A DNA stretch of 33,552 nt from a virus. The DNA is taken from positions 1-33,552 of IMG/VR virus record IMGVR_UViG_3300005600_000060, one strand, 5' to 3'. Each line of letters opens with the position of its first letter. The stretch's first letter is position 1. Below, piece by piece: positions 5,151-27,818 of the stretch. A program made the position numbers and the translations under genes. The notes beneath the pieces are model-generated. The model was not told the DNA's origin. It saw only the letters and a program-made list of their open reading frames with translations, and did no database searches.

Positions 5151-6540
5151 AACGCTGGTAGAAGGACAGCACCTCGACCATGCGAGCGGTGCCGGCCGTG
5201 CCGTAGCCCGCGCCGTCGCTCGCGTCGTAGGGCGCACCGCCGGCCTCGGCGGTGAACGTGAGGTTCTGCGCGACCGGGTTGTTGCGGCCCGGGTTCGGGC
5301 GCTCGCTGACGTAGCGCGCCTTCGGGAACCGCCAGAGCTGGCAGCGACCGTCGGCGTCGGCAACCGCGATCTCGACCTCGTAGAAGTCGTCCGCGAGCAT
5401 GCCGGCGTGGTAGGTCGAGTCGATGTAGAGCAGCGACATCTGCACCGAGGCGCTGAACGTCTGCTGGTTGATCGCGATCGCCCCGAGGTTCCGGGTCGCC
5501 GACACTTCCTGCGCGTTGTTCGCGACGTTCATGCTGAACGACAGCGGGTCCACGCGGACAGCGTTCGTCTCGGCGAGGCCGTTCCGGAGCAGGCGCACCA
5601 TGACCACGCTCTGGATGGCGTTCGCGAGCGGGTTCGAGTTCGCGATGACGGCCTCGTTCCAGTTCTGCACGTCGAAGCCGCCGACGGCCGCGCTCGTTGC
5701 GTCGTCGATGATCTGCTCGTCCTTGCCGATGAACGACATCGTGCCAGTCCAGCCGGCTTGCCCCGGCGCCACGGCGAGCTGCAGGCTGTTCGGGATCATG
5801 CCCCGGAACAGCGCCCAGTCGGTCGAGTCGAGCCCCGTCGTGCTCGTCGTGCCTGCGAGGCTCGTGTCGCTGTAGAAGCGCACGACCTGGAACGACCGCT
5901 CGTAGGTGCTGTTGCGGGTGTAGCCGCGCACAGCGTAGATCCGGACTGCGGTGCCCGCGAGGTCGGACGACAGGCCTGCGTAGGCTGCAACCGAAGCCTC
6001 GCCTGTGTCGTTCACCAGCGTGATCTTCGTGGACGTCGGGCTGGCCCCCACGCGGAACACCGTGTCGAGGTTCTTGTTCCCGAACCCTGTCGCGAAAATG
6101 ATCTCGCCCTCCGCCGGTGTCCGGTCCCACCCAGTCCCATGATTGAGCGAGCTGTCCGAAACCTCGAAAGTCACCGCCTCATCCGCCGTCGTCACATCTG
6201 CCAGCGGCGTGAACCCCGCCGACGTCCAGCCGTCCTCGCGCGTCACGACGCTGTCGTCGTCGGCGTAGAGCAGGCCGACGAGGAAGTCGTCGTAGGTGTC
6301 GAGGCTGTACTGCAGTTGCAGCGACCCACCGACGTTCGCGCTGACGATGACCGAGCCCGAAGACTGCGCGTCGTTGCGAACTTCGTTGCTCTCGTCGCGC
6401 TGGAACGCGGTGTTGTAGTCCTCGCTGACGAGCCGCAGGACCCGCAGGTTGTTGTTGCCGCTGTTGGGGACGGTCGTATTGCCGTAGGAGCCCTTCGTCT
6501 CCTTGACGTAGCCGAGTCCGGGATTCTTCGTAACCGTCAT
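5143..6540 (-). CDS. Major tail tube protein
   Basis: This 465-aa protein would polymerise into the tail tube. The N-terminal block has RVLRLVSEDYNTAFQRDESN, followed by a region rich in Ser/Gly beta strands (SGSVIVSANVGGSLQLQYSL). This resembles the phage tail tube family typified by Pfam Phage_tube_2, where an early motif of the form R-x-E-x-x-x-x-R precedes a GG-SLxxE/QY segment. The length is on the long side for the family and may include an extra surface domain around residues 100-230. Its ATG at 6540 overlaps the stop of the upstream gene (ATGA). The stop TAG lies inside a short palindrome. Position between the neck genes and the tail chaperones fits the role. Confidence 0.85.
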   Translation of the reverse strand: MTVTKNPGLGYVKETKGSYGNTTVPNSGNNNLRVLRLVSEDYNTAFQRDESNEVRNDAQSSGSVIVSANVGGSLQLQYSLDTYDDFLVGLLYADDDSVVTREDGWTSAGFTPLADVTTADEAVTFEVSDSSLNHGTGWDRTPAEGEIIFATGFGNKNLDTVFRVGASPTSTKITLVNDTGEASVAAYAGLSSDLAGTAVRIYAVRGYTRNSTYERSFQVVRFYSDTSLAGTTSTTGLDSTDWALFRGMIPNSLQLAVAPGQAGWTGTMSFIGKDEQIIDDATSAAVGGFDVQNWNEAVIANSNPLANAIQSVVMVRLLRNGLAETNAVRVDPLSFSMNVANNAQEVSATRNLGAIAINQQTFSASVQMSLLYIDSTYHAGMLADDFYEVEIAVADADGRCQLWRFPKARYVSERPNPGRNNPVAQNLTFTAEAGGAPYDASDGAGYGTAGTARMVEVLSFYQRSA

Positions 6541-7352
6541 GTCTGCACCTCGAAGTGGAATGGAAGCCGCACGTTGGACTGCCAGGTTTCAGCCGGCGTC
6601 CGCCCGATGACCGTCACGCTCGGAGTCCCGAACGTGAGGCCGTCGAATGAGCACTGGTCGAACGCTTGCACGATGGTTTCGCTTGCAGCCCGACTCGCGG
6701 CCTCCCCAGCGCCGAGCGGGAAGTTCGTCGCCACGAGCAGTCTGCCAGGTATCCGAACGGTCCTGACCTCGAGCTGCAGTGGGGTTAGCGCCTGGAAAGA
6801 GGCGAGCGCGAAGGGCGGCGAAACCGGTAGAGCGTCCGGCGCGTTGTCGAAGTAGGTCGGGATACCGAGCGGCGTCGCGACCGCCGCGTCCCACCGGTCC
6901 CGAATCGACCGGTAGGCGGTGATCGTGTTCGCGGCGATGCGCACGCCGACGATGCCCTGCGGTATGCGGGTGTCGTCGAACTCCCACGGCAGCGAGACCG
7001 CGACGCGGTAGTTGTTGCCCTGCCGGCCGATATCCCGGATGGTGGGCTCGTCGAGCATGTCGGCGCCTGCGTACGACTTGCCTCGGAACTCGGCCGACAA
7101 CGACTCAGCGAGTGTGTAGGCAGCAGCGACGCCGGTGCCGGCAGCGACGTGCACCTCAGCATCAGCCGTCCCCGTGACGCGCTCGGTGGCGTTCGTGAGC
7201 CGCGCCGTGGACGACGGGCGGAACTGCCACACAAGCGCGGGCGGCGTAGCCGTGGCCGGCGGGGCGTTGCCCGGCAGGAAGGCCACACTTTCGCCGGTCG
7301 CCCAGGCGCGCGCGGCGTCCTCCATCGCGTTCGCTACGTCAGATAGCGCCAC
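6537..7352 (-). CDS. Probable tail terminator / tail completion protein
   Basis: This 271-aa protein starts at a GTG with a good Shine-Dalgarno (CAGGAG, 7-8 nt upstream) and overlaps the preceding gene by 14 nt. Early residues AMEDAARAWATGESVAFLPG and a long beta-rich middle are seen, with no catalytic motif. In siphoviruses the gene between the gp10-like neck protein and the tail tube usually encodes the tail terminator (gpU-like). The protein is about twice the length of lambda gpU; its second half (GVRIAANTITAYRSIRD onward) could be an added domain. Its stop overlaps the tail tube start. The function comes mainly from position. Confidence 0.55.
   Translation of the reverse strand: MALSDVANAMEDAARAWATGESVAFLPGNAPPATATPPALVWQFRPSSTARLTNATERVTGTADAEVHVAAGTGVAAAYTLAESLSAEFRGKSYAGADMLDEPTIRDIGRQGNNYRVAVSLPWEFDDTRIPQGIVGVRIAANTITAYRSIRDRWDAAVATPLGIPTYFDNAPDALPVSPPFALASFQALTPLQLEVRTVRIPGRLLVATNFPLGAGEAASRAASETIVQAFDQCSFDGLTFGTPSVTVIGRTPAETWQSNVRLPFHFEVQT
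6779..6790 (-). repeat. Shortened sixth copy of the intergenic motif, inside a coding sequence
   Basis: The top strand reads GTGGGGTTAGCG, identical to the first 12 bases of the five intergenic copies, then diverges (CC instead of GC). The preceding bases GCA match copies at 17557 and 21060. It lies within the tail terminator-like gene, where it encodes part of ALTPLQ, about 240 nt upstream of the tail tube start. It may be chance, or an internal signal for the tail genes. Confidence 0.35.
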
Positions 7353-7848
7353 TTTGGAACTCCTGCATCGCGACCTGCAGCGAGTCGCCGAGCATCCCGC
7401 GCGGCGCGCTGACGTGGTATCCGCCGCGCACGAGAACCGTGCCAGCTACCCGCTTGCGTCGAGTCTTCGGGACGTGCGTCGCCTTGCTCGGGCCCGGGTC
7501 GCGCGGCGAGAACAGCCCGAACTCGATGATCGGTGCGTGCGGGACGTTGTTCTGCAGGTAGATGCGCTGCCCGAAGTCGGCTCGGTTGATGAGCGTGAGC
7601 CCCGCCTGCATCACCTGCCCGCTACCCGGGTAGGACTGCCGCCCTTCGGTGTTGTCCGCACCGGACGGCCCGTCGATCGTGACGTGCCAGCCCGCGCGCA
7701 ACTGGCCGAAGTTGACCGGCGACAGGTTGATCGCGCCTTCGAGCACTTTGAACGCGAACTTGCGGAACCGGGGCATGAAGACCCGGTCCGGCAGCTCTTT
7801 CACCGCCTCCCGTAGCCGCTTGGCGTAGTCGCGCGCGTTGCTCGGCAT
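7339..7848 (-). CDS. HK97 gp10-like neck/tail completion protein
   Basis: This 169-aa protein has the usual pattern of HK97 gp10-type proteins: a basic helical N-terminus (YAKRLREAVKELPDRVFMPR), a segment LSPVNFGQLRAGWHV, and then IYLQNNVPHAPIIEFG, where a strand ending in an ENxxPYAxxxExG-like motif is typical. Such proteins join head and tail or cap the tail tube. It starts at ATG 7848, separated by 2 nt from the upstream stop at 7851-7853. The neighbours are a probable head-closure protein upstream and the tail terminator candidate downstream. Confidence 0.7.
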   Translation of the reverse strand: MPSNARDYAKRLREAVKELPDRVFMPRFRKFAFKVLEGAINLSPVNFGQLRAGWHVTIDGPSGADNTEGRQSYPGSGQVMQAGLTLINRADFGQRIYLQNNVPHAPIIEFGLFSPRDPGPSKATHVPKTRRKRVAGTVLVRGGYHVSAPRGMLGDSLQVAMQEFQSGAI

Positions 7849-7850
7849 CG

Positions 7851-8237
7851 CTACGCCCCCAACGCCACCGCGTATCCGATGAGGACCGCTTCGGCCGCAT
7901 CGCCCGGGCCGAGGATCTCCTTGATCTCGAGCACCCGGTAGAAGGTGCCCGCGCGCACGCCGACCTGGTCGAGCATGGCCGGCGCCGTCGTGAGTTGCGC
8001 CCCCGGCACGACAACGGCCGTCATGGCCTGCTGCACGGTACTGTCGCTGAACATGCGCGTTCGGACCGGGTCCACGAGCATTGCCCGGATCGCAACGTCG
8101 GTCGCCGTCTCGGTGTAGAGGCGGGTCTCCGGGTCCTCGACTCGAGCGATGTGCCGCCAGGTCATCGCCGAGCCGAAGCCGTCGTCCTCGGTGGCGAACT
8201 CCTGCAACAGTTCCGCGAACTCGGCGCCGAGGGTCAC
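7851..8237 (-). CDS. Probable head closure / neck protein
   Basis: The GTG at 8237 overlaps the stop of the 1173-aa gene as GTGA, so I prefer this start to the longer frame that would begin at 8276 in the upstream gene. The 128-aa product has TWRHIARVEDPETRLYTETA, then DPVRTRMFSDSTVQQAMTAV and AGTFYRVLEIKEILGPGDAAEA. This beta-rich small protein with a repeated xxxxVxxIxxxLGPGD ending is reminiscent of phage head-closure or neck proteins. The function is assigned from size, style and position between the connector-domain protein and the gp10-like protein. Confidence 0.55.
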   Translation of the reverse strand: MTLGAEFAELLQEFATEDDGFGSAMTWRHIARVEDPETRLYTETATDVAIRAMLVDPVRTRMFSDSTVQQAMTAVVVPGAQLTTAPAMLDQVGVRAGTFYRVLEIKEILGPGDAAEAVLIGYAVALGA

Positions 8238-11200
8238 GACCGCGACACCCCCGATCCCTCGCCGCCTGCGAGCCACGGATACACGAGCCCTTCGGCTTTG
8301 GCGCGGCGCTTCGTCATGCTGCCGCCGCCGCCGTTCGCATACTCGGTCGTCTTCTCGAACCCAGCACCCTTGCGGGTCTCCCGGGTGACCGACCCCCGAT
8401 TGACCTCGTTAGGCAACACGTCATCGCCTTGCAGGATGTCGCCGGCAATCAGGCAGGTGGCTTCCTTGATGAAGTCCGGGACCGTGCTCTGATCGACGAG
8501 GCGCCCCCAATCGTCATGGCAGCCGTAGCGCGGGTAGCACAGACGCTGGCCGAGGTGCTGCGGGACACCGCGCAAGAGCGGGGCAACCTGCGCCTGCACC
8601 CAGTCGCGCGTCGCCTCGCGGAGCGCGATCTCCTTCTCGTCCTGCGTCTTCTCGGTCCAGAACGTCGGGTCGCCAAACCGGTTCCAGTAGGCGTCGGCGA
8701 ACGTGATGTCGACGAGGCTCTCCGCATCGGCCTTGCCGGTGCCGTCCTCGACGATGAGCGTCGGCGGCGGCGCGTCCGTGCCGATCTCGTCCGTCCCGAA
8801 GTCGCCGTCGGCGCCGAGGATGTTCTCACCGCCATCGATCGCGCCGGCATCGATGGCGACGTCGCCTTGCGGATGGGCCGGGATACCGGACAGCGTCCCG
8901 GCGGCCTGGTCGATGAGGAACCCGGCCGTGATGTGCCCGCGTGCCGTCCGGTGGATGCCGTTCTCGAACCGGCTCGCACGCTGCGTGTGCAGGCCGTTGA
9001 ACTCCATCGGCAAGCTACTCGGGTCGACGAGCGCCGCATTCGGGCGCGCGGCCGCGATGTCGGCCTGCTTGGCGCGGAACGCCGTCAGGTTCTCGTCCGT
9101 GCCGATCGGCGTCTTCGAGCTGAGTTGCACGATGACCTCGGCGACCGCATCCTGCCCCTTCGCGCGGATCGAGAACTCGTCGTCGATCGCGTTGAGCACC
9201 TCGAGCGTCTTCGCCTCGAAGTCGTCGGGATCGAGCCCGAGGTCGCTCTCGCCCTGCTCCCAGACCTTGAGCACCGGCCAGGGGATGAGTTTGAGCGGGG
9301 CGAGCTTCTCGAACGCCTCCTGAATGTGCTCGCGAACGAGGTGGATGAGAGGCCGCAGGCCCCACGTCAGCTTGAACGTGAGCGGCCCTTCCGCGACGAA
9401 CGTGCCCGTGAGTTCGACCCAAGAGCCATCCTCCGCGACGTCGTAGACGAGGTTCCCGCTGTACTGCGCTGAGTTGTTGCCGCCAGCGCCCTGCAACCCC
9501 AGCACCGAGTTCTCGACGAAGACCGGGGCGTTGACTTCCCACGTCGAGAACGCGCCCGCAGTCGCCGTGAACCGGCCTCGGGCGGGGATCAGGCCGCTCG
9601 CAGCCTGCACCGTGACGGTCATCGACTGCGTGACGGTGATGTTGTTCGGTGACACGTCCCAGGTCACACCGGCACCGAACTGCGCCACGCCCGGGATCGC
9701 CTCTCGCGAGACCGACGTCGCGTTGACCGGCAGGTTGATGAGCCCGACGATGCCCGAATACTCGCCCTCGTCCGCGAACCGCCCCTTCATGCGCGCCATG
9801 AGCGACACGGGCGGCCCGAACGTGTTCGAGCTCATCCCGTAGAAGTGGTTGGCGTTGACGCCGATGTCGAGCGGTTCCCAGTCGCGGGTAACCGTGTTGA
9901 ACGTGATGACCTTCGGGTCGACCGTGCTACCGCCAGGGAATGACGCCGCCGACGGGTAGAGGTCCGGGTCGCGGTCGTAGAGCAGCAGCGCAGACGAGAT
10001 GTCGCCGACCTGCTGGCTTTGCCCGCCCACGAAGATCAGCGGGCAAATCTTCCAGCCGCCCGACGGGGTGATGAGCTTGAGTTGCAGCAGCCGCCACGCC
10101 TGGAACCCCGCGTCGATGTAGTCCTGCGGCCGGTGGACGACCATCTCCGAGACCTTGGGCAGGCCCGTGGTCTGCGCCGGCTCGAAGTCCTCGGTCCGCA
10201 CGAGGCGCACGCCGGGGACCGTCGTCTGCAGGTTCTCCATCACCGCCCGCAGGTTCTGGGCGTAGGGGTAGCCGTTGACGTTCGCCGCGTTGGCACGCGA
10301 GATGGGGTCTCCGTGCCAGAGGGCGATCTGCATGTCGTCCTGGCCGAGGTCCGTCCGCAGATCGGTCAGGAACTTCTTCCAGGCGTTGATAGTCTCCGAG
10401 AACGACCGCCACGGGCAGCCGTGGAAGTTCACGAAGGTCATGACCTCCGCGTCCCAGATCGCGAGCAGCGCGCCTTCCCACTGCGCGGGCTGCGACTGCC
10501 ATAGCGAGTTGCTCTTCGCTTGTGCGACCGTGATCTCGGCAAGAAGCGACTGGTACCAGAGGCTGCCCTTCTGCCAGCCCAGGCACGCCGTCGTCGCGTT
10601 CGCGGTCGTCGCACTCGTGCCGCCCGTGATCGTACCGGGAACCAGAACCTCGTCGTTCGTGTCGACGACGTAGAGGAACCCCTGCGCCGCGTTGAAGTGG
10701 TGCAGCGTCGCCGACCATGACCCGGCTGTGACGGTCTCGCCGATCGTCCATGTCTCCGGGAACGGGTCGTCGTCGCACTTGATGCACTGCACCGACACAC
10801 CGCCGAGCAACACGTCGCCGCCCTCGTCCTGCACGTCGCGAGGCTCGAACGGGATCAGCCGGACGCCGCGGTTGGCAACGTCAGCTTCCTGCACGAAGTG
10901 CTCGTAGGCGCCGCGCAGCAGTTGGAGCTCCATCCCGAGGTGCGCCGCCTGCCCATCCGTGCCGTTGCCGTTCGGCGGGTTCTCCCACAGCCCGTTCGAC
11001 GTGCCGTTCAGGTTGGGAACGTGGTGGTGAGCGACCCAGGTGCCGGCCGTCGTCTCATCCCCGACCGTATCGATCGTTGCCTGCCACGAGACGTTGCGCT
11101 GGTTGGTGACGACGTCGCTGTCGCTGAGCGTTCCCGTGACGTCGATGATGTAGAGGACGTCCGAGCCCAGCTCGTTGCCGACCAAGATCCGGAACGACGC

Positions 11201-11755
11201 GCCTCCCGAGGTCGTGCAGCGGTCGCCCTGGAAGAACTCCTCGCCAGCACCGACAGTGGCGCCGTCCAGCGTGATCGACCGCGCGGGCTTCGCCTGCCGG
11301 TCATAGAACGGCGTGTCGGACTTGTCCTCCGGGATGAACGAGTTGAGGACCGCGTCCTGCCGGCGAAGGCCGGGCTGGCCGTAGAGCGGGTAGTCGAGGC
11401 CGCTGGCCGCGATCGTGATCGACCCCGTGCCCGAAGTCCCGTCAGCGCGCTCGAATGTGACCGTCTCGCTCGGCGCGAATGCCGCGCCCGGCACACCGAT
11501 GGACGGGTGGTCCCATGACTCGACGATGTAGGTCGTGTCGGTGACCTTCTTGAGCACCCGACCACGCGCGAGACTCGTCCCGCACGAGAAGTAGGTATTC
11601 GGCACGACCTCGATCGAAGGCGCCGCGAGCAGCGTCATCAGCTGCCCGTAGAGCGGGTCGTGCGCGCCCGGGTTCGGGTCGACCTGCGTGCCGTCTGCGA
11701 GTGGCCGCCCGCGCCACTGGTCTCCGGCGATCAGGAAGTAGTGCGTGTTTGCCAT
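8234..11755 (-). CDS. Tandem SGNH (sialate O-acetylesterase-like) protein fused to head-tail connector-like domain
   Basis: This 1173-aa protein has three parts. Residues 1-500 start HYFLIAGDQWRGRP, which lines up with the SGNH block I FLIAGQSN but lacks the catalytic Ser, and include IALWHGD near 477; this looks like a degenerate SGNH module. Residues 568-960 form a second module with FVGGQSQQVGD (candidate nucleophile Ser580), VWEQGESDLG near 831, and ENGIHRTARGH (candidate His935), the pattern of the SASA carbohydrate-esterase family. Beta-rich inserts resembling phage fibre segments (ETVTAGSW, ITGGTSATT) lie at 160-400. After an acidic Gly/Asp linker, residues 999-1173 read LIVEDGTGKADAESLVDI, then ADAYWNRFGD, PRYG and a Gly-rich end, like the DnaT-like/head-tail connector proteins normally encoded alone at this locus. 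No stop or frame change separates the parts. A virion enzyme that de-acetylates host glycan is inferred. Confidence 0.7.
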   Translation of the reverse strand: MANTHYFLIAGDQWRGRPLADGTQVDPNPGAHDPLYGQLMTLLAAPSIEVVPNTYFSCGTSLARGRVLKKVTDTTYIVESWDHPSIGVPGAAFAPSETVTFERADGTSGTGSITIAASGLDYPLYGQPGLRRQDAVLNSFIPEDKSDTPFYDRQAKPARSITLDGATVGAGEEFFQGDRCTTSGGASFRILVGNELGSDVLYIIDVTGTLSDSDVVTNQRNVSWQATIDTVGDETTAGTWVAHHHVPNLNGTSNGLWENPPNGNGTDGQAAHLGMELQLLRGAYEHFVQEADVANRGVRLIPFEPRDVQDEGGDVLLGGVSVQCIKCDDDPFPETWTIGETVTAGSWSATLHHFNAAQGFLYVVDTNDEVLVPGTITGGTSATTANATTACLGWQKGSLWYQSLLAEITVAQAKSNSLWQSQPAQWEGALLAIWDAEVMTFVNFHGCPWRSFSETINAWKKFLTDLRTDLGQDDMQIALWHGDPISRANAANVNGYPYAQNLRAVMENLQTTVPGVRLVRTEDFEPAQTTGLPKVSEMVVHRPQDYIDAGFQAWRLLQLKLITPSGGWKICPLIFVGGQSQQVGDISSALLLYDRDPDLYPSAASFPGGSTVDPKVITFNTVTRDWEPLDIGVNANHFYGMSSNTFGPPVSLMARMKGRFADEGEYSGIVGLINLPVNATSVSREAIPGVAQFGAGVTWDVSPNNITVTQSMTVTVQAASGLIPARGRFTATAGAFSTWEVNAPVFVENSVLGLQGAGGNNSAQYSGNLVYDVAEDGSWVELTGTFVAEGPLTFKLTWGLRPLIHLVREHIQEAFEKLAPLKLIPWPVLKVWEQGESDLGLDPDDFEAKTLEVLNAIDDEFSIRAKGQDAVAEVIVQLSSKTPIGTDENLTAFRAKQADIAAARPNAALVDPSSLPMEFNGLHTQRASRFENGIHRTARGHITAGFLIDQAAGTLSGIPAHPQGDVAIDAGAIDGGENILGADGDFGTDEIGTDAPPPTLIVEDGTGKADAESLVDITFADAYWNRFGDPTFWTEKTQDEKEIALREATRDWVQAQVAPLLRGVPQHLGQRLCYPRYGCHDDWGRLVDQSTVPDFIKEATCLIAGDILQGDDVLPNEVNRGSVTRETRKGAGFEKTTEYANGGGGSMTKRRAKAEGLVYPWLAGGEGSGVSRS

Positions 11756-12216: not shown

Positions 12217-13419
12217 CTAGTGCACGCACGGCCGGACTGCGAGGTCCGGGTCGAGGGTCGTGTAGCCGCCGAGCGCGTCGAGGATGACCCCGACCGCGGC
12301 GCCGCGCGCCTCGTAGAACATGCGCGCACGGATGGCGAGGCCGCTCTCCGGGTCGGTCGCGGTGTAGACGCGAGCGCCAGGGAAGTCGGCTTCGCTGTGC
12401 TGCGGCAGCGGCACCATCGCGAGCGCGAAGGCGTTGCGGTGGAACGCGAGGTCCGACTCGTAGTTCGCGACCGAGCCGACGAGGCCGACGGTCGAGACGA
12501 ACGCCCAGGTCGAACTCGCGCCGAGGTCACGCCGCAGACGCGGGCTGATCGGCACGTCGGGCCAGTTGTTGCCGCTCGGAGCGGCGTCGGCCGTCACCGT
12601 GTACTTCTCGGCGATGCCGGTCGTGGAGTCGGTGATCTCGATCACCTGCCCCTCGTGCAGCGTCACCGACTGCGAGGTGCTCGTGTTGAGCCCGACAGTC
12701 AGGGCGTTCTTCTGCGGCGTGCCGGAGATGACCGGCGTCGAGCCCGTGGTGAGCGTCGCGTCGCCTTCGAGCGTCTGGACGTTCTGCGTCTCGAAGAAGT
12801 CGAAACCGTACTTCGGACCGATGTTGCCGGTCACCTGCGTCGAGATGCCTCGGTCGCCGGCACCCTGCATCTGCGCGAACGCGCTCGTGCCGAGCAGCGC
12901 CTCGGTCGTCACAGGCGACGCCATGTACTGCAGCGTCGAACCCTGCGGCACCTTGTTCTCGACCATGAGCCTGCGGATCGCCGGGATGGACTTGTCCATC
13001 TGCCCGCGGGCCGTGCTGTCGAGGTCGTAGGTGTGCGGGACCTGCGAGGCGAGGCCGAGAAGCGCCTGGTCGAACCAGTCGCCGATCGCATCCGCCATCG
13101 GGCCGATGTGCTCCGAGATGAGGCGCTTGCCGCTGTAGGCGAGCTCCTTGTCGGTGACCGTGATCGGGACCTCCTTGTGGATGGTCAGGTCGATCTTGGC
13201 CGTGCCGGTCTTCAGGTCCTGGTACGTGCTGTTGGGCGCGTCCTCGGCCGTGAAGGTTGCCGGCTTGCGGATGTTGATCGTGTCGCCGAGACCGTAGTCG
13301 TTGCGTTCGGCCTCGAAGCCGCGGTAGACCCGCGACGCCATTCCCTTGCGATTCCGCAGCCACATGAGGGCGGAACGAGCCCAGAACTCTGGGTTGTAGT
13401 TGTTGAGACGGTTGGCCAC
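12217..13419 (-). CDS. Major capsid protein, P22 coat-like
   Basis: This 400-aa protein begins MANRLNNYNPEFWARSALMWL and has RVYRGFEAERNDYGLGDTINI then HKEVPITVTDKELAYSGKRL and ISEHIGPMADAIGDWFD. This resembles P22 gp5-type coat proteins, which have the HK97 fold; the length is close to theirs. The GTG at 13419 is preceded by a strong Shine-Dalgarno AAGGGGAGGT with 5-6 nt spacing, the best in the window, as expected for the most abundant virion protein. It follows the scaffold gene after a 247-nt untranslated leader with direct repeats. Confidence 0.9.
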   Translation of the reverse strand: MANRLNNYNPEFWARSALMWLRNRKGMASRVYRGFEAERNDYGLGDTINIRKPATFTAEDAPNSTYQDLKTGTAKIDLTIHKEVPITVTDKELAYSGKRLISEHIGPMADAIGDWFDQALLGLASQVPHTYDLDSTARGQMDKSIPAIRRLMVENKVPQGSTLQYMASPVTTEALLGTSAFAQMQGAGDRGISTQVTGNIGPKYGFDFFETQNVQTLEGDATLTTGSTPVISGTPQKNALTVGLNTSTSQSVTLHEGQVIEITDSTTGIAEKYTVTADAAPSGNNWPDVPISPRLRRDLGASSTWAFVSTVGLVGSVANYESDLAFHRNAFALAMVPLPQHSEADFPGARVYTATDPESGLAIRARMFYEARGAAVGVILDALGGYTTLDPDLAVRPCVH

Positions 13420-17556: not shown

Positions 17557-17571
17557 GTGGGGTTAGCGGCT
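17557..17571 (-). promoter_or_regulatory. Intergenic motif, copy 2 (before portal)
   Basis: Same 15 bases as copy 1, lying across the large-terminase stop codon (TAG at 17570-17572). The flank on the coding strand, TGCG, is shared with copy 3 at 21060. It stands 36 nt before the portal GTG. Confidence 0.65.
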
Positions 17572-20131
17572 ACATCGACTCGGTCTCGAAGTCCGACAGC
17601 GGCGTCACGAGCGACCCGAACCTCTGATGCACGAGGTAGCCCAGGGCGTCGCTCATGTGCGTGTATTTCTTGTCCTTACCCTCGTCGAGGTCGCCCCGGT
17701 CGTCGAGCTGCGTCATGTCCAAGTCGTCGATGAGGTGCGGGCACCGTTCCCGGTCGACGTAGATCCGGACGGTCTCGCTGGCGTTGCGCAGCCGGCTGTT
17801 CATCACGACCACCCGGTCGCGCTGCGCCGGGTTCGCCTTCGGAACGTCGATCTCGAATACCGGCCACTGCCGGCTGAGGTAATCCTCGATGGTCTGCCAG
17901 TCGGACCGCTCGGCGCTCGTCTTGCGCGCCCCGCCGGTCGCATCGCCGTAGCACAGCACCGGGCCCTTGTGCCGGCCGCCCCACTTCTCGAGCAGCCGCT
18001 CGCAGACGCGGCGGGTGTTGCTGTCCTCGTCGATCCAGACCTCGTCGATGACGGCGGTCACCGTCTCGAACGGAAGGTGGTACTTGCAGTAATGGCACTG
18101 CTCGCCCGACCGGCCCGGCTGCGCGACCGCGCACCGGGGGCACTCGATGAGGTCGTATGCCTGCTCGAGGTCTTGCGCGACGACGGCGACGCCGGGCGAG
18201 ACGTTGAAGTCGAACCCGAGCAGCAACGGCTCATCGGGGTCGTACTGAAGGTCGGTGATGTTCCAGGCGCCGAACTGGTAGTAGGCGCGGCCGGCGTCGG
18301 ACAGGAACTCGCCGCCGTATTCCTGCCGGAACGAGCGGTCGTCGAGCTCGCGGCGAGCGGACGCGATCTTCTCGGGCGACAGGACGAGCCACGACGGCCA
18401 CGGGTAGTAGACGCCCCAGCCGTCGAGGTCGATGGCCTTCTGCAGCAGCTTGTAGAAGTGGTTCTTGCCGCGCGGGCGGCCGATGAACATGCCCCAGCCC
18501 GGCGGGCGCCCCTCGGTGTCGAGCGCGGGCTTGACGGACGACGTCCACGCCTCGGGCTTCATGTCCGCGAACTCGTCGAGGACGACGCCGTCGAGGTGGA
18601 TACCCTCGACGCGCTTCGGCTGGTCCATGCCGATCACGTAGAGCCGCGCGCCGGTGACGAACTCGAAGTAGCGGTCCGAGATGTTCATCGAGCGCAGCGC
18701 CCACTTCGGGATCCACGCGCGGAACCGTTCCCACGAGATGCGCTTCGCCTGGTCGTGCGTCGGCGCGAGGTAGGCGTATTTCGGCTCGAGCACGCCGTCG
18801 GGCGGTGTCAGGCAGCCGTGATGGTTGCCGCCGAAGTGGAACGAGCCGTAGAGCAGGCGGTGCTGCGCCTCGACCGTCTTGCCGGAGTTGCTTGTGACGA
18901 TGCCGCCGTGATGCAGCACGTAGAGGTTGCTAGGCAGCGCAACCGTGATGTCGAAGGTCCGACACGTTCGCCGTCCGACCGGTGTCAGACCGATCCGGTC
19001 ACCTCGAACGTTGTGCAGCACGAGCCCTGATGTATCGACGGACCCCTTCTTACGAAGGAAGGGGTCCAGAGCATCGATCAAGCGCAGGGCGCACTCGTTC
19101 GATGTCGTCTTGACGTCGTAGACGTATCCGTTCTTGTACTTCTCGCGCCGATCAGCGTGGATGGTGAGGTCTTCTTGGAAGTACTTGAAGATGATCTTTC
19201 GGCAGGCCTCGACCACGCTTCGGGACTGCATCCCGATCTGCACAACGATTCTGCGCTCGGTACTCCTGTAGATCGACCCGTCCGTGTCAATGATCCCCGC
19301 GAGCAGCGCTAGGCAGGATTCACGATCCCACGTGTCGACCTCGTCCCAGTCGATGACCTTCTCATGCGCATAGCGCCCGTGGCACCACTCTCGATAGAAA
19401 GGGATGGCGTCGATGACGTAGGGGCCGACCCTGACCATCCAGCTAAAATTCTGGCTACGCGCCTTCCTGGCGACTCCGCCCAGTTCGCGGGCCACCGCGT
19501 CAGGGACAACATTGTCATCACTCGATATCGTGAGGGTTGTTTTCCGGCCCTCATACCGTCCAGCGTTTTGTTCCCGGCAACATCCATCGCCCAGCATTGC
19601 GCCAAGGCTGTAGGTGCGCTCGACGCTCTTGCTGCCTCCCTGGATCAGATCTCCGAGGTAGATCCGACGGACGCGGTGCCGCTTCGTAAGCATCTCGAGC
19701 GAGACCCGGCCGAACCCCAGGGCGGGCAGGTGAGGTCGTCGCTTGTCGAAGTCTGACTCATTGCACGCCCACAGTCTGTGATTCGGTGTTGCTTCAAGGT
19801 ACGTGCGCCGTCGCGACGTCAGTGCCAAGACGCTCTGCACGCCATTGTCCCAAGACCGCGTGACAGTAGTCACAACGGGGTGCCCCTCGTCGAACCCGAC
19901 GACCTCGTCACCGGGCCGAAGATCCTCGATCGCGCGGGGCCCCGATGGCGTTGCTACGAGTGTGCCCTCTGCCAGACATCTTCGCCCGGCGGCAATGACA
20001 TCGAACCGGTTGCGCGACGAGAGGAACCGGCGACGCTGCCGGTGCATCCGCATCTTGCCGCCGAAAGTCCGCAGGAACGCCGGGTCGAACAGCGAGGGTG
20101 CTTCCTGTTCCGCTTGCTCGACCGCGGTCAC
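17570..20131 (-). CDS. Large terminase subunit interrupted by an intein
   Basis: Packaging motor with ATPase and nuclease domains, 853 codons including a 364-residue intein; the spliced protein would be 489 aa, normal for the family. The extein junction is AAGRR (46-51) then SGKT (416-419), so the intein splits the Walker A loop. The ATPase continues with Walker B VVLDE (516-520). The nuclease domain has GFDFN (Asp641), GDATGG (Asp730) and HMSDAL (Asp828). A four-Cys module CPRC / CHYC (664, 667, 679, 682) is inserted in the nuclease domain, likely a zinc ribbon. The GTG at 20131 overlaps the small-terminase stop as GTGA. Without splicing, the protein cannot form a complete Walker A. Confidence 0.95.
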   Translation of the reverse strand: MTAVEQAEQEAPSLFDPAFLRTFGGKMRMHRQRRRFLSSRNRFDVIAAGRRCLAEGTLVATPSGPRAIEDLRPGDEVVGFDEGHPVVTTVTRSWDNGVQSVLALTSRRRTYLEATPNHRLWACNESDFDKRRPHLPALGFGRVSLEMLTKRHRVRRIYLGDLIQGGSKSVERTYSLGAMLGDGCCREQNAGRYEGRKTTLTISSDDNVVPDAVARELGGVARKARSQNFSWMVRVGPYVIDAIPFYREWCHGRYAHEKVIDWDEVDTWDRESCLALLAGIIDTDGSIYRSTERRIVVQIGMQSRSVVEACRKIIFKYFQEDLTIHADRREKYKNGYVYDVKTTSNECALRLIDALDPFLRKKGSVDTSGLVLHNVRGDRIGLTPVGRRTCRTFDITVALPSNLYVLHHGGIVTSNSGKTVEAQHRLLYGSFHFGGNHHGCLTPPDGVLEPKYAYLAPTHDQAKRISWERFRAWIPKWALRSMNISDRYFEFVTGARLYVIGMDQPKRVEGIHLDGVVLDEFADMKPEAWTSSVKPALDTEGRPPGWGMFIGRPRGKNHFYKLLQKAIDLDGWGVYYPWPSWLVLSPEKIASARRELDDRSFRQEYGGEFLSDAGRAYYQFGAWNITDLQYDPDEPLLLGFDFNVSPGVAVVAQDLEQAYDLIECPRCAVAQPGRSGEQCHYCKYHLPFETVTAVIDEVWIDEDSNTRRVCERLLEKWGGRHKGPVLCYGDATGGARKTSAERSDWQTIEDYLSRQWPVFEIDVPKANPAQRDRVVVMNSRLRNASETVRIYVDRERCPHLIDDLDMTQLDDRGDLDEGKDKKYTHMSDALGYLVHQRFGSLVTPLSDFETESM
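18887..19978 (-). other. Intein with LAGLIDADG homing endonuclease in the terminase Walker A loop
   Basis: Codons 52-415 of the large terminase. It begins CLAEGTLVATPSGPRAIEDL (Cys1, splicing block A), has TPNHRL (block B, TxxH) at residue 115, two LAGLIDADG-type helices LGAMLGDG (176-183) and LLAGIIDTDG (276-285), and ends LYVLHHGGIVTSN followed by Ser416. The 364-residue length fits a full intein with endonuclease. The penultimate residue is Ser instead of the usual His. Base composition is lower in GC: 31/60 at 19501-19560 against 45/60 at 18481-18540 in the extein, a sign of separate origin. Confidence 0.93.
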
Positions 20132-24110: not shown

Positions 24111-26465
24111 CTAGAGTGTGATGCCGATGCCGAGCCCCATCCGGGGCCGGCTCTGGTCGACGCCCGCGGTGCCGTTGTGGGCGCGGGCCGTCATGGACAG
24201 GGTCGCGTTTCCCGCGAGCGCGCCGACGCCCGTCAGCGTGCCGCTCGCCGAGATCGAGAAGGACGGGCCGCCGGACAGGGCGCCGACGGCGGTCAGTGTT
24301 CCGCTCCCCGACAGCGCCAAGGTCGTGCTGCCGGAGATGTCGCCCGGCGCCAGCAGCGTCGCCGATGCGGTGAGACCGAAGGTCGCCGCCCCGGCAAGTT
24401 CACCAAGCCCCGTAAGCGTGCCGGCCGCCGAGACTCCGAGCGTGGCGTCGCCCGAGATTGCGCCGGCCGTCGCGGGGTCGAACTCGAAAGCGCCCGCGTC
24501 GGGCGTCGTCGAGTCGCGCGTGTTCCCGGCGTAGCTGTCGAAGTCGTCGCCGACCGGGACCGCCGTGCCGTAACCGATCGCGGCCGAACCGCTTTGCAGG
24601 CTCCAGTCTGTACCGGAGACGAACGACGGGTCGGTGTCTTCGAGGTTGTTCGATGCGGTGATCGAGACCCCCGACGTCATGGTCGTCGTGGTGGCGTTCG
24701 GGCAATAGAGCAGGTTGTTGCGAACGAGGCAGTTACCGGTGCCATAGTCCGCGACGCTCACCAGTTCCGCGTCACCCGTAAGGCTCTCGCTCGTGTAGAG
24801 CGTGTTGTGATAGACCTCGATGTCTTCGGGGTCGGGGGTGATCGTCCCGCGTTGTTCGACTCGGATGCACTGCACATCCACGAGGCTCGTCGCGTCCGTG
24901 ACGAGGAACCGATTGTTGCGAATCGTCGTGCCCTTGTTCCAGATCGTGAGAGGAACCGGGTAGGCCGTGTCGCGATACTTGCAGTCGAAGTCGTTCCGCT
25001 CGATGAGAACGTCTTCGACGCGGTTGTCCTGGCTGGCCGACGCGGACCCAACGCCTACGCACCATGCCGTGTTGTGCACGAAGGTGTTGTCGCTAATGAC
25101 GACGTGACTCGTCGTGTCCGCGGCGGTCGAATAGTCCTTGCTGTGCAGCTTGATGCTGTGCTTGTCGGACTCGGCGTCATCAAAGTCGCAACCCGAAACC
25201 ACCAGCCGCTCGTTGAACGGAAAGCGCAACAGGTGCTCGGTCGTGATGCTGTGGAACAGGCTGTTGAGCACCGCACCGTCACGAGCTGAGAAGTAGGCAC
25301 CGTATTGCGTCCCACTCGGGTGATCGCAGTTCGCGATGCACAGGCCGGCGCAGATATCGACAGAGAAGAAGTCCGGCGTCTCGTGGCCGAACCCGTACAT
25401 CTGCGAGAACCCCGCAGCTCGGATGCGGTAGAACAACAGGTCGTCGCCTCGGTAGCCGAGGCTGAACAACCGACCCGCGGAACTGGCCGGCGGGTCGAAC
25501 TCCAGGTCCATGACCCGGAGGTCGTTGCACTCGTCGTCCGTGCTGCCGACCTGGATCACCGACGCCGTGTGCTGCACGTCGATGATCGGGTTGTTCGTGA
25601 AGATACCCCGAGCATCGGGGCTCGTGCCCGTCCCGAACGCGCCAATGAGGCTCGCGCCCGTGTCGGAGTCGAGCGTCACCCCAGCCGACGCGACGAACGT
25701 CTCACCGCGCCGGAACAGCACCCGCTTGCCGGATGCGTAGTGTGTCGTCATGACCGAGTCGAAGTCCGAGCTCGTCACCTGCGTCGCCCCGGAAGGTGCA
25801 CCGGTGAAGGTGCCCGAGGTGCTAACGCAGACCGTGTCCGTGCCAGCGAACACGGTGTCCGCATCGGTCACCGTGATGTCGACCGTGTCCGAGGCGGACG
25901 CCCCGGTAAGCGGGTCGGTGACCGTGAGCGTGACGGTGTAGGATCCGGGCTGATCGAAGACATGCACCGCAATCGGTCCGGTCTTGCCCTTGCTGTAGGT
26001 CTCGTTGCTGTCGTCCCAGTCCCATCGGTAGTGCAGGTGATGGAACGGGCGCGATACGCCAGAGGCCGTCGTGCCCGTTGCGTCGAAGTGCACGTTCATC
26101 GGGGCGACGCCTGACGTGCGCGTCGTCGCAATCGAAATGGTGACGCCTTCGTTGAGCGTGCCCGAAGCGGACATCGACAGCGAAGCGGCACCGGACAGAC
26201 CGCCGACGCCGAGCAGGGTGCCCGTCGCCGAGAGCGCGATCGGCGCCGTTCCGACGAGCGCACCGGTAGCCGCAAGCGTCGCCGCAGCAGAGAGAGTCGC
26301 GGACGCAGAACCCGACAACGCGCCGACGCCCGTCGCCGTGCCCGAGGCCGTCATCGAGATCGACGCCGTGCCCGAGATCGCGCCGGACGCACCGGCGTCC
26401 GGGTCGGACTGATAGGCCCCGATGTCTAGCTGGCGCTGGTATGCGCCGATGTCGCGCCCGGCCAT
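24111..26465 (-). CDS. Tail-spike-like protein: 20-residue repeats, PKD domain, beta-helix, repeats
   Basis: 784 aa. Residues 28-107 are four repeats with period exactly 20, of the form GALSGxASLSxSASGTLTGV. Residues 110-200 look like a PKD/Ig-like domain (VAPMNVHFDATG, YRWDWDDSNE, VHVFDQPGSYTVTLTVTDP). Residues 225-640 are a right-handed beta-helix with short strands and many Asn/Asp turns (IIDVQHTASVIQV, HVVISDNTFVHNTAWCVG, IRNNRF). Residues 668-760 bring back about 4.5 copies of the 20-residue repeat. A receptor-binding or polysaccharide-degrading spike is likely; no catalytic pair is clear. ATG 26465 lies 6 nt after the upstream stop. Confidence 0.75.
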   Translation of the reverse strand: MAGRDIGAYQRQLDIGAYQSDPDAGASGAISGTASISMTASGTATGVGALSGSASATLSAAATLAATGALVGTAPIALSATGTLLGVGGLSGAASLSMSASGTLNEGVTISIATTRTSGVAPMNVHFDATGTTASGVSRPFHHLHYRWDWDDSNETYSKGKTGPIAVHVFDQPGSYTVTLTVTDPLTGASASDTVDITVTDADTVFAGTDTVCVSTSGTFTGAPSGATQVTSSDFDSVMTTHYASGKRVLFRRGETFVASAGVTLDSDTGASLIGAFGTGTSPDARGIFTNNPIIDVQHTASVIQVGSTDDECNDLRVMDLEFDPPASSAGRLFSLGYRGDDLLFYRIRAAGFSQMYGFGHETPDFFSVDICAGLCIANCDHPSGTQYGAYFSARDGAVLNSLFHSITTEHLLRFPFNERLVVSGCDFDDAESDKHSIKLHSKDYSTAADTTSHVVISDNTFVHNTAWCVGVGSASASQDNRVEDVLIERNDFDCKYRDTAYPVPLTIWNKGTTIRNNRFLVTDATSLVDVQCIRVEQRGTITPDPEDIEVYHNTLYTSESLTGDAELVSVADYGTGNCLVRNNLLYCPNATTTTMTSGVSITASNNLEDTDPSFVSGTDWSLQSGSAAIGYGTAVPVGDDFDSYAGNTRDSTTPDAGAFEFDPATAGAISGDATLGVSAAGTLTGLGELAGAATFGLTASATLLAPGDISGSTTLALSGSGTLTAVGALSGGPSFSISASGTLTGVGALAGNATLSMTARAHNGTAGVDQSRPRMGLGIGITL
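24186..24464 (-). repeat. C-terminal 20-residue (60-bp) repeat array
   Basis: Codons 668-760 of the 784-aa protein, about 4.5 units of GxLxGxxTxxLSxSGTLTxV with a 60-bp period. They match the N-terminal array at 26145-26384. Confidence 0.8.
26145..26384 (-). repeat. N-terminal 20-residue (60-bp) repeat array
   Basis: Codons 28-107 of the 784-aa protein, four units with a period of exactly 20 residues. The units share GAL, SG, SAS and GTL positions. Confidence 0.8.
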
Positions 26466-26471
26466 GCTGCG

Positions 26472-27779
26472 CTAACTCCCGTCCGGGATGGAGTAAAGGG
26501 CCGCGTCCTTGAGCAACGCGCCACCGCCCGCGGTGTCGTTCAGCGAGTAGTCGTCGCTCGCTCGGTTCGTGAACGGATCAGCACTGAGCGTGATGTCGTT
26601 CGGCCCGGCCGCCGGTTCCCCGGCGTGACTTGTCGTTGAGTTGAACGCGCCGCTCGTGTTGCTGTAGACGGCGTTGTAGTCGCACCACCACAGGTGGTTC
26701 GGCGAACTGACCGAGTCGTTGATCCCGTAGCCGCCGTTGTAGGCGATGACGCTTTCGGTGACCTGGATGATCTTCGGGTAGTCCGTGCCGGCCGTGCCGG
26801 TTGTCCCGATGCCATCACCCGCGTTGTCGACGATCGTGCAGTTGTCGATCGACACCATCTGCCCGAAGCCGTAGCCGGCGATCCAGACCCCATCGCCAGC
26901 GCAGTCGTAGATCAGGCAGTTCGAGAGGACAACGCCCGACATGCCTTGCGTGAACGCGAGGCCCGAGTTCCCGAAGTAGGTCTCGCCCTGCCCGTCGAAG
27001 GTGCAGTTCTGGAAGTGCGCCCCGCCTCGCGAAGACAGGATGTCGAACCCGGTGAACGTAGACCCGGTGAAGTAGCAGCCCCGCGCGTAGACGTTCGCGT
27101 AGGTGCCGCCGACGTTGAAGAAGTTGCTGGCAGCGCCCGCGACGTCGATGACGACATCGATGAGGCGGATGTGGTTGCCGCCTCCGGTCGCGGTGATGAA
27201 GCTGCTACTCCCGCCGCTCGTGGAAGTGAGTTCGACGCCCTCGAGGTGAACGCCGACGTCGGCCTCAAGCTGCATCAGCCGGAAGTTCCCGTTCGCGCGG
27301 ATGATCGGGCGACCGCTCGCAGCCTCGATCCGAATCGGTGCATCGGTCTCGCCCCAGGTCGTGTTCGCGCCAGGGAAGAAGTCGACGTGGTCGTAGGTGC
27401 CCGAGGCGAGCGAGATCGTCCAGCCCGGCGCCCAGTCGCGCGAGTCGCTGTTCGTCGTGTCGGCGTCGAGCGTCTGCCGGGTGCCGTTGACGTACCAGTT
27501 GTCGGCCGTATAGGTGCCGTCCGAGGACTCGGCGGTCACGAGCGCAGTGCAGGTCGAGACGCCACCGGTGAACGCGGTGATGCGCGCCAGCTTGCGCGAG
27601 CCAGCGGGCGTGTCGACCCAGACGTAGTCCGTGCCGTCGTCCGCGACGCCGGTGAAGTCGACGGTCTCGTTGAGCGTGACCGTGGTCCCGCTCCAGTCGG
27701 CGTTCGTGCCGCTACCGTCCGAATCCGAGGGCGCGGTGTCCGACCCGGTCGATGCGTTGTAGGGAATGATGGCCGTCAT
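26472..27779 (-). CDS. Beta-helix tail spike-like protein
   Basis: From ATG 27779 the product has 435 aa (a TTG at 27791 would add four residues; neither start has a clean Shine-Dalgarno). The N-terminus is beta-rich (MTAIIPYNASTGSD, WSGTTVTLNETVDFTGVADD). From about residue 150 the sequence shows repeating short strands with Asn/Gly turns (IRIEAASGRPIIRANG, NHIRLIDVVIDVAG, VVLSNCLIYDCAGDGVWIAG, SIDNCTIVDNAGDGIG), the look of a right-handed parallel beta-helix like pectate-lyase-type spikes. No catalytic residues are certain. It is followed by a second beta-helix protein. Confidence 0.75.
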   Translation of the reverse strand: MTAIIPYNASTGSDTAPSDSDGSGTNADWSGTTVTLNETVDFTGVADDGTDYVWVDTPAGSRKLARITAFTGGVSTCTALVTAESSDGTYTADNWYVNGTRQTLDADTTNSDSRDWAPGWTISLASGTYDHVDFFPGANTTWGETDAPIRIEAASGRPIIRANGNFRLMQLEADVGVHLEGVELTSTSGGSSSFITATGGGNHIRLIDVVIDVAGAASNFFNVGGTYANVYARGCYFTGSTFTGFDILSSRGGAHFQNCTFDGQGETYFGNSGLAFTQGMSGVVLSNCLIYDCAGDGVWIAGYGFGQMVSIDNCTIVDNAGDGIGTTGTAGTDYPKIIQVTESVIAYNGGYGINDSVSSPNHLWWCDYNAVYSNTSGAFNSTTSHAGEPAAGPNDITLSADPFTNRASDDYSLNDTAGGGALLKDAALYSIPDGS

Positions 27780-27818
27780 GTTCGACGCCAACCATCCCGC
27801 CCCCGCCCCTCCCTGTCG

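Follow-up and report, generated by a model that had tools for sequence, protein, structure and literature searches.

SGNH esterase-like modules fused in frame to a head-tail adaptor domain in a phage from IMG/VR and its relatives

A phage enzyme that modifies surface sugars would usually be expected on a tail fibre or spike. The DNA analyzed here, a 33,552-nucleotide stretch of the IMG/VR virus record IMGVR_UViG_3300005600_000060 (positions 1 to 33,552; hereafter the window), contains a gene that places two SGNH-like modules in front of a domain resembling the small head-tail adaptor Ad1, which raises the question of whether a carbohydrate esterase-like enzyme is carried at the neck of the virion instead. 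The fusion was found to be continuous in the window and to recur in divergent phages; its product is probably a virion protein in which an adaptor ring displays an SGNH esterase, or a glycan-binding derivative of one, around the neck.

The fusion gene and its domains

The gene starts with an ATG at position 11755 and ends with a stop codon at 8234-8236 of the minus strand, encoding 1173 residues without interruption, as a previous reading made from the sequence only had described. Its parts, with the evidence for each, including the predicted local distance difference test (pLDDT) of a structural model, are:

8234..11755, minus strand: fusion gene (SGNH module 1, SGNH module 2, linker, head-tail adaptor Ad1), continuous frame
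10076..11755, minus strand: degenerate SGNH module 1, residues 1-560 (motifs; first modules of relatives)
8891..10075, minus strand: SGNH/SASA-like module 2, residues 561-955 (motifs, SASA profile, hhalign, fold matches)
10016..10018, minus strand: codon of Ser580, predicted nucleophile (motif position)
8951..8953, minus strand: codon of His935, predicted catalytic histidine (motif position)
8762..8890, minus strand: linker, residues 956-998, rich in Gly, Asp and Pro and ending in PPPT (sequence; pLDDT mostly below 50)
8237..8761, minus strand: head-tail adaptor Ad1 (DnaT_2), residues 999-1173 (Pfam, phrog_477, pLDDT of about 95 in the core)

Two profiles recovered the DnaT-like connector that the sequence-only reading had placed at the C-terminus, and the gene occupies the adaptor slot (see below). 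Residues 999-1169 match the Pfam family DnaT_2 (PF20557) with E=1.8e-24 (87 bits against a cut-off of 27; profile positions 2-160 of 168), and the same end of the protein matches phrog_477, "head-tail adaptor Ad1", with E=3.2e-26; as a sequence match, this is far beyond chance. The window record holds a single DnaT_2 match, and therefore no second Ad1, and exactly one was found in each of 14 fusion-holding records (the window and 13 others), which may be incomplete.

Free-standing members of the adaptor family start with M-x-(L/I)-V-E-D-G-T-G; LIVEDGTG occurs at residue 1000 of the fusion and lies 1-3 residues past the start in the free-standing relatives. The stretch between codons 917 and 1053 has no ATG, GTG or TTG in frame, which makes production of a separate Ad1 from an ordinary internal start impossible. 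Internal initiation was rejected on this ground, and the separate start near codon 995 that the earlier reading had considered is absent.

The same virus was found in IMG/VR contigs from three other samples (L003, L004 and L005), at 99.96-100% identity and with the frame intact. L003 is the only one that spans the whole fusion gene, and its translation is identical to that of the window; the other two are partial.

Module 1 contains GDQW at residue 11 (block I without the nucleophile Ser), NFHG replacing QGE, and HRP.DYIDAG at block V, together with low-confidence inserts. No Pfam match was obtained for it, and its profile match to the related modules described below was not significant. The weakest part of the layout is its assignment to SGNH, for which the grounds are its motifs, a partial fold in a model of low confidence, and relatives whose corresponding modules are clearer. 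Module 2 contains GGQS at residues 577-580, WEQGES at 832-837 and GIH at 933-935 (GIHRT from 933), which provide the Ser of block I, the QGE of block III and the His of block V, and it holds an insert of about 120 residues at approximately 680-800. All the motifs listed in the sequence-only reading (GDQW at 11, GGQS at 577 with Ser580, WEQGES at 832 and GIHRT at 933) are present.

SGNH-Ad1 fusions in other phages

IMG/VR was scanned with an Ad1 alignment and then with the SGNH modules, and the frame running through each Ad1 match was read. SGNH and Ad1 share one frame in 25 further contigs, one of which (L003) is the window's own virus; with the window included, the fusions form 13 lineages at 75% Ad1 identity. 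Among 213 Ad1 frames, a set in which some contigs appear in overlapping copies and which the choice of queries has enriched, Ad1 begins past residue 190 in 36, every one of which bears SGNH or belongs to the window's own virus. The fusions are of the following types:

Type A, two SGNH modules and Ad1: the window, L098, L099, L100, L101, L250, L251 and L038 (5' end cut)
Type B, one GDSL-type module and Ad1: L103, L104 and L077
Type C, one GQSN...QGExD...HY module and Ad1: L102, L105, L106, L200, L201, L203, L223-L225 and L238

Modules 1 and 2 of the type A relatives are homologous to each other (hhalign E=4.7e-12), the profile of types A and B matches that of type C (E=1.6e-5), and module 2 of the window matches the A/B profile with E=1e-5. 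Hence the layout which the sequence-only reading had seen in the window, two SGNH-like modules, the first degenerate, physically fused to a connector, is also that of divergent relatives. In the lineages examined, the nucleophile position of module 1 is occupied by Q, K, Q, N, H or F and never by Ser (block I reading GDQW, GDKQ, GDQQ, GDNI, GDHM or GDFQ); loss of this nucleophile is systematic. Module 2 keeps the Ser in all two-module lineages examined (GDSQ, GTSQ, GDSI or GGQS). Low-complexity linkers comparable to that of the window are present in L098 and L099, and in types B and C the linker between SGNH and Ad1 is nearly nil (for example L103, ...DSSVQTFVVEDG, and L105, ...VAGVDSALVVEDG).

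No homologues of the window's SGNH parts or of the type A or C modules were found in 50,697 phage records, where the search turned up free-standing adaptors only. In 84,980 bacterial and archaeal genomes, searched for prophage versions, the SGNH pattern yielded zero relatives and the adaptor pattern yielded 39, none with an SGNH-bearing frame. A sequence search of the PDB gave nothing useful.

Only one complete SGNH frame among the relatives was found to lack a neck domain. It lies at L257:4801-6807, where the gene context is different, and its product has two SGNH modules, the first of them dead, and no connector.

The same SGNH relatives on other neck domains

Three further neck domains carry the same SGNH relatives in front of them. 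One, phrog_394, is 43-53% identical to the free-standing 223-residue Bbp14 of Bordetella phage BPP-1 and bears the annotation tail tubular protein A in related records. Each of 14 contigs tested has exactly one copy of it, always within a frame of 472-1449 residues. Another is gpW-like and matches phrog_2545, "head-tail adaptor Ad1" (E=3e-8), and also phrog_118; its fusion gene lies between the large terminase and the portal, the position of W in lambda. The last is a domain of about 150 residues, found in L205, L255 and L256. It lies within a Mu-like head module, immediately ahead of Ne1 (phrog_26), a position that suggests a connector role. It showed no Pfam or PHROG match at L205:7870-8382 or L255:4620-5096, is fused to two different SGNH types, and possibly represents an undescribed adaptor family. 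When the Ad1 profile was compared with those of the Bbp14-like and L205/L255 domains, no significant match resulted, and these neck domains were therefore treated as unrelated by sequence.

A neck gene 52% identical to the phrog_394 domain was also noticed in Limnohabitans phage DC33 (L258; PQ492659.1). The taxonomy line of this record reads Inoviridae, yet the genome is 39 kb long and the neck gene is of podovirus type; the record is probably misclassified.

Exchange of SGNH cassettes and selection on the fusion

The SGNH part of L104, which is carried on Ad1, and that of L255, which is carried on the unclassified domain, are 83% identical over 268 residues. At the DNA level the two are 79% identical over 809 bp, from the ATG region to the junction of SGNH and neck domain, and past this junction the proteins do not align (22%, background). 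Likewise, L106 (Ad1) and L205 (unclassified domain) are 69% identical over 639 residues and differ in their C-termini. Two phages, L032 and L065, have no SGNH and the same flanking genes as their fused sister phages L101 and L103, to which they are 71-85% identical in coat, 72-73% in Ad1 and 76-85% in Hc1; for these three proteins they are about as close to L101 and L103 as the latter are to each other. In a quick tree of 150 Ad1 domains, in which many forks are weak, the fused state requires at least seven changes, three of them forced by well-supported branches. The architecture is modular: on repeated occasions neck genes have gained or exchanged an in-frame SGNH cassette at their 5' end, with the neighbouring assembly genes left undisturbed.

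Copies of the window's lineage are almost identical, and selection was estimated from relatives. In nine pairs of fusions the ratio of nonsynonymous to synonymous substitution rates (dN/dS; Nei-Gojobori) was 0.12-0.46 in the SGNH part and 0-0.45 in Ad1, indicating purifying selection on both halves at the protein level within a single frame.

Gene neighbourhood

The genes next to the fusion are:

12217..13419, minus strand: major head protein of P22-coat type, upstream neighbour (phrog_283, E=1.3e-51; PF11651, E=2.9e-12)
7851..8276, minus strand: head closure protein Hc1, directly downstream and overlapping the 3' end of the fusion (phrog_161, E=5.3e-7)
7339..7848, minus strand: Neck1/tail completion protein Ne1 (phrog_169, E=1.9e-17)
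6537..7352, minus strand: tail terminator (phrog_179, E=4.2e-20)

Along the minus strand the order is terminase, portal (phrog_145), Mu-F-like head morphogenesis protein, a gene in scaffold position, P22-type coat (phrog_283), a small gene, the fusion, Hc1, Ne1, tail terminator and tail tube. This is the order of phage HK97, where Ad1 lies between coat and Hc1. Together with the recurrence on four different neck domains, this gene slot strongly suggests that the product is placed at the virion neck.

The related cultured phages encode Ad1 on its own, and the slot that precedes it may hold another large gene:

Alteromonas phage R7M: 1154-residue PKD-containing protein
Vibrio phage AQKL99: 768-residue protein
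Vibrio phage 033B: 387-residue protein with a weak Ig-like match

The different large genes found between coat and Ad1 in cultured phages (PKD, phrog_10818 and Ig-like) lie at L015:529-3993, L008:1429-3735 and L018:2819-3982, which suggests that the slot is a general insertion point for virion decorations. The name of PF20557, "putative DnaT-like ssDNA binding protein", looks misleading, as the family occupies the adaptor slot in the annotated phage records examined (for example L007-L018). Where adaptors are annotated automatically under this name, or as tail tubular protein A, large enzymatic domains may go unnoticed.

Predicted structures

The AlphaFold2 model of L098 (832 residues) had a mean pLDDT of 71.7, with about 95 in the Ad1 core. 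The three-layer alpha/beta/alpha fold is clear in this model, which matches acetylxylan esterase 1zmb (E=7.5e-7), the mammalian sialic acid esterase and CE2 enzymes. For the window protein the leading PDB matches are likewise SGNH enzymes, despite the low confidence of the model: thioesterase I, Axe2, the CE2 enzyme 4xvh and sialate O-acetylesterase 6xpm, with E values of 0.015-0.1. Its best matches in BFVD are unnamed proteins of 170-187 residues, the size of Ad1. The window model is too weak to settle module 1.

Relation to known neck and tail proteins

Neck proteins with carbohydrate esterase-like domains are already known. In the neck passage structure (NPS) proteins of lactococcal 936 phages, groups F and G contain such a domain (HHpred match to PDB 2waa), and a role in host attachment has been proposed (PMC6669499). 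Like the fusion these are virion proteins located at the neck; unlike it, NPS is a collar protein in its own right, not joined to the adaptor ring, and combines a BppU-like N-terminal ring domain with a trimeric coiled coil (PMC6669499). No such Pfam domain was detected in the window protein, whose ring-forming part would be the C-terminal Ad1. The N4-like Pseudomonas phage DEV also holds a carbohydrate esterase-like domain in a collar at the level of the head-tail adaptor, but its gp53 is encoded by a separate gene, forms its own 15-mer beta-barrel collar around the dodecameric adaptor and carries the esterase part in a trimeric fibre (PMC10925440).

Phage SGNH enzymes are otherwise represented by gp63.1 of G7C and the tailspikes of Pectobacterium phages, which deacetylate surface polysaccharide and are attached to the tail, not to the adaptor (PMC7693777). 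Tail tubular protein A of KP32 and phiYeO3-12 is an adaptor-position protein with a reported second, glycan-hydrolysing function; the activity reported is alpha-1,4-glucosidase-like, there is no SGNH module, and the phiYeO3-12 protein is described as single-domain (PMC5741709, PMC7060351). Free-standing Ad1 (phrog_477/DnaT_2) and BPP-1 Bbp14 share the connector domain and gene slot and have no N-terminal SGNH extension. No description of an SGNH module fused directly to an adaptor was found in the open-access literature; the direct fusion appears undescribed, in agreement with the sequence-only reading, which knew of no protein of this design.

Proposed function and alternative explanations

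Adaptors of the Ad1 type form rings of about 12 under the portal. The C-terminal domain of the fusion is expected to act as such an adaptor, and since the rings have about 12 subunits, the N-terminal SGNH modules would be displayed around the neck in about 12 copies each. Module 2 would de-esterify, probably deacetylate, an acylated glycan, either on the host surface or in the surrounding slime; having lost its nucleophile, module 1 would most likely serve as a glycan-binding element or a structural spacer. Ring formation, outward display, catalytic activity and substrate are what we infer from these data, as are the "collar fibres or whiskers" and the real esterase activity of the sequence-only reading.

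Several observations weigh against this proposal. The window's own SGNH modules are divergent: module 2 scores below the cut-off of SASA PF03629 (E=7.6e-4; 19.6 bits against 24.8), which is exceeded in relatives L098, L105, L106, L057 and L074, so that the window protein is called SGNH-like through homology and not by score, and no obvious counterpart is seen for the acid residue of the usual DxxH motif (ENGIH). The window model has a mean pLDDT of 49 (about 95 in Ad1), and its best PDB match reaches only E=0.015. A direct profile comparison of Ad1 with HK97 gp6 gave no significant match, and the identity of Ad1 is based on curated family names and gene order. Finally, no lipopolysaccharide hydrolase activity was found for the DEV collar fibre, which makes binding without catalysis realistic (PMC10925440).

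The main alternative is accordingly a non-catalytic collar in which both SGNH modules are lectin-like adhesins that keep the phage near glycan-coated hosts or particles. The absence of the module 1 nucleophile in all lineages examined, the divergence of module 2 in the window, the DEV fibre and the neck passage proteins of 936 phages, whose carbohydrate-binding modules include one that bound its host (PMC6669499), are consistent with it. However, the Ser of module 2 is retained (GDSQ, GTSQ or GGQS) in every two-module lineage examined, and type C fusions retain a full GQSN...QGExD...HY set that pure binding would not need; we consider this explanation unlikely, though a serious competitor. It is considerably less probable that the product is a polyprotein cleaved in the linker, with Ad1 assembling alone and the SGNH part acting as a free enzyme or elsewhere in the virion. 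The linker is indeed long, rich in Gly and Pro and predicted to be disordered in the window, L098 and L099, but the near absence of a linker in types B and C makes cleavage unlikely, fusion to four different neck domains would be left unexplained, and a separate gene would be simpler. A still lower probability was given to a structural decoration, the SGNH fold stabilising the head-neck joint with no role in glycans. In its favour, other large genes rich in Ig or PKD domains often fill the slot between coat and Ad1 in related cultured phages; against it stand the catalytic motifs conserved in module 2 and in types B and C, and the movement of one cassette between unrelated necks, which argues against a fitted structural contact. 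An assembly or frame artefact joining two genes, to which we assign a negligible chance, is refuted by the second full-length assembly of the same virus and the two partial ones, by the many divergent relatives with the same join, and by dN/dS values below 0.5 on either side of it.

Display of an SGNH esterase or its glycan-binding derivative on the adaptor ring is thus the explanation we prefer. The joins recurring in many environmental phages suggest that attachment of such enzymes or sugar-binders to the particle neck is something phages have done time and again, and the involvement of four different neck domains speaks for a real role, selected more than once. On balance we lean, with less assurance, towards a general plug-in site at the neck, where SGNH esterase cassettes would be fused repeatedly and in frame, always N-terminally, to the portal-proximal protein that the phage employs (Ad1, Bbp14/tail tubular protein A-like, gpW-like or the Mu-module protein). 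Each virion would then have a ring of about 12-24 enzymes or lectins, working on glycans of the host or of biofilm at a distance from the tail tip. Fusion to an essential head-tail ring would fix the copy number and position of the enzyme, and the neck location could let it clear or grip glycans around the virion body rather than at the tip; the fusion also offers a direct test of collar or whisker function.

Other features of the window

The gene for the terminase large subunit (17570-20131, minus strand) is interrupted by an intein of Hint/LAGLIDADG type (Hint_2, E=3e-8), apparently inserted in the ATPase P-loop of the terminase (AAGRR/CLAEG...VVTSN/SGKT, with slashes at the intein borders). 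Two adjacent large proteins, encoded at 24111-26465 and 26472-27791 on the minus strand, match right-handed beta-helices, and the first also has a PKD domain; they are possible further host-glycan-binding proteins of the virion or tail.

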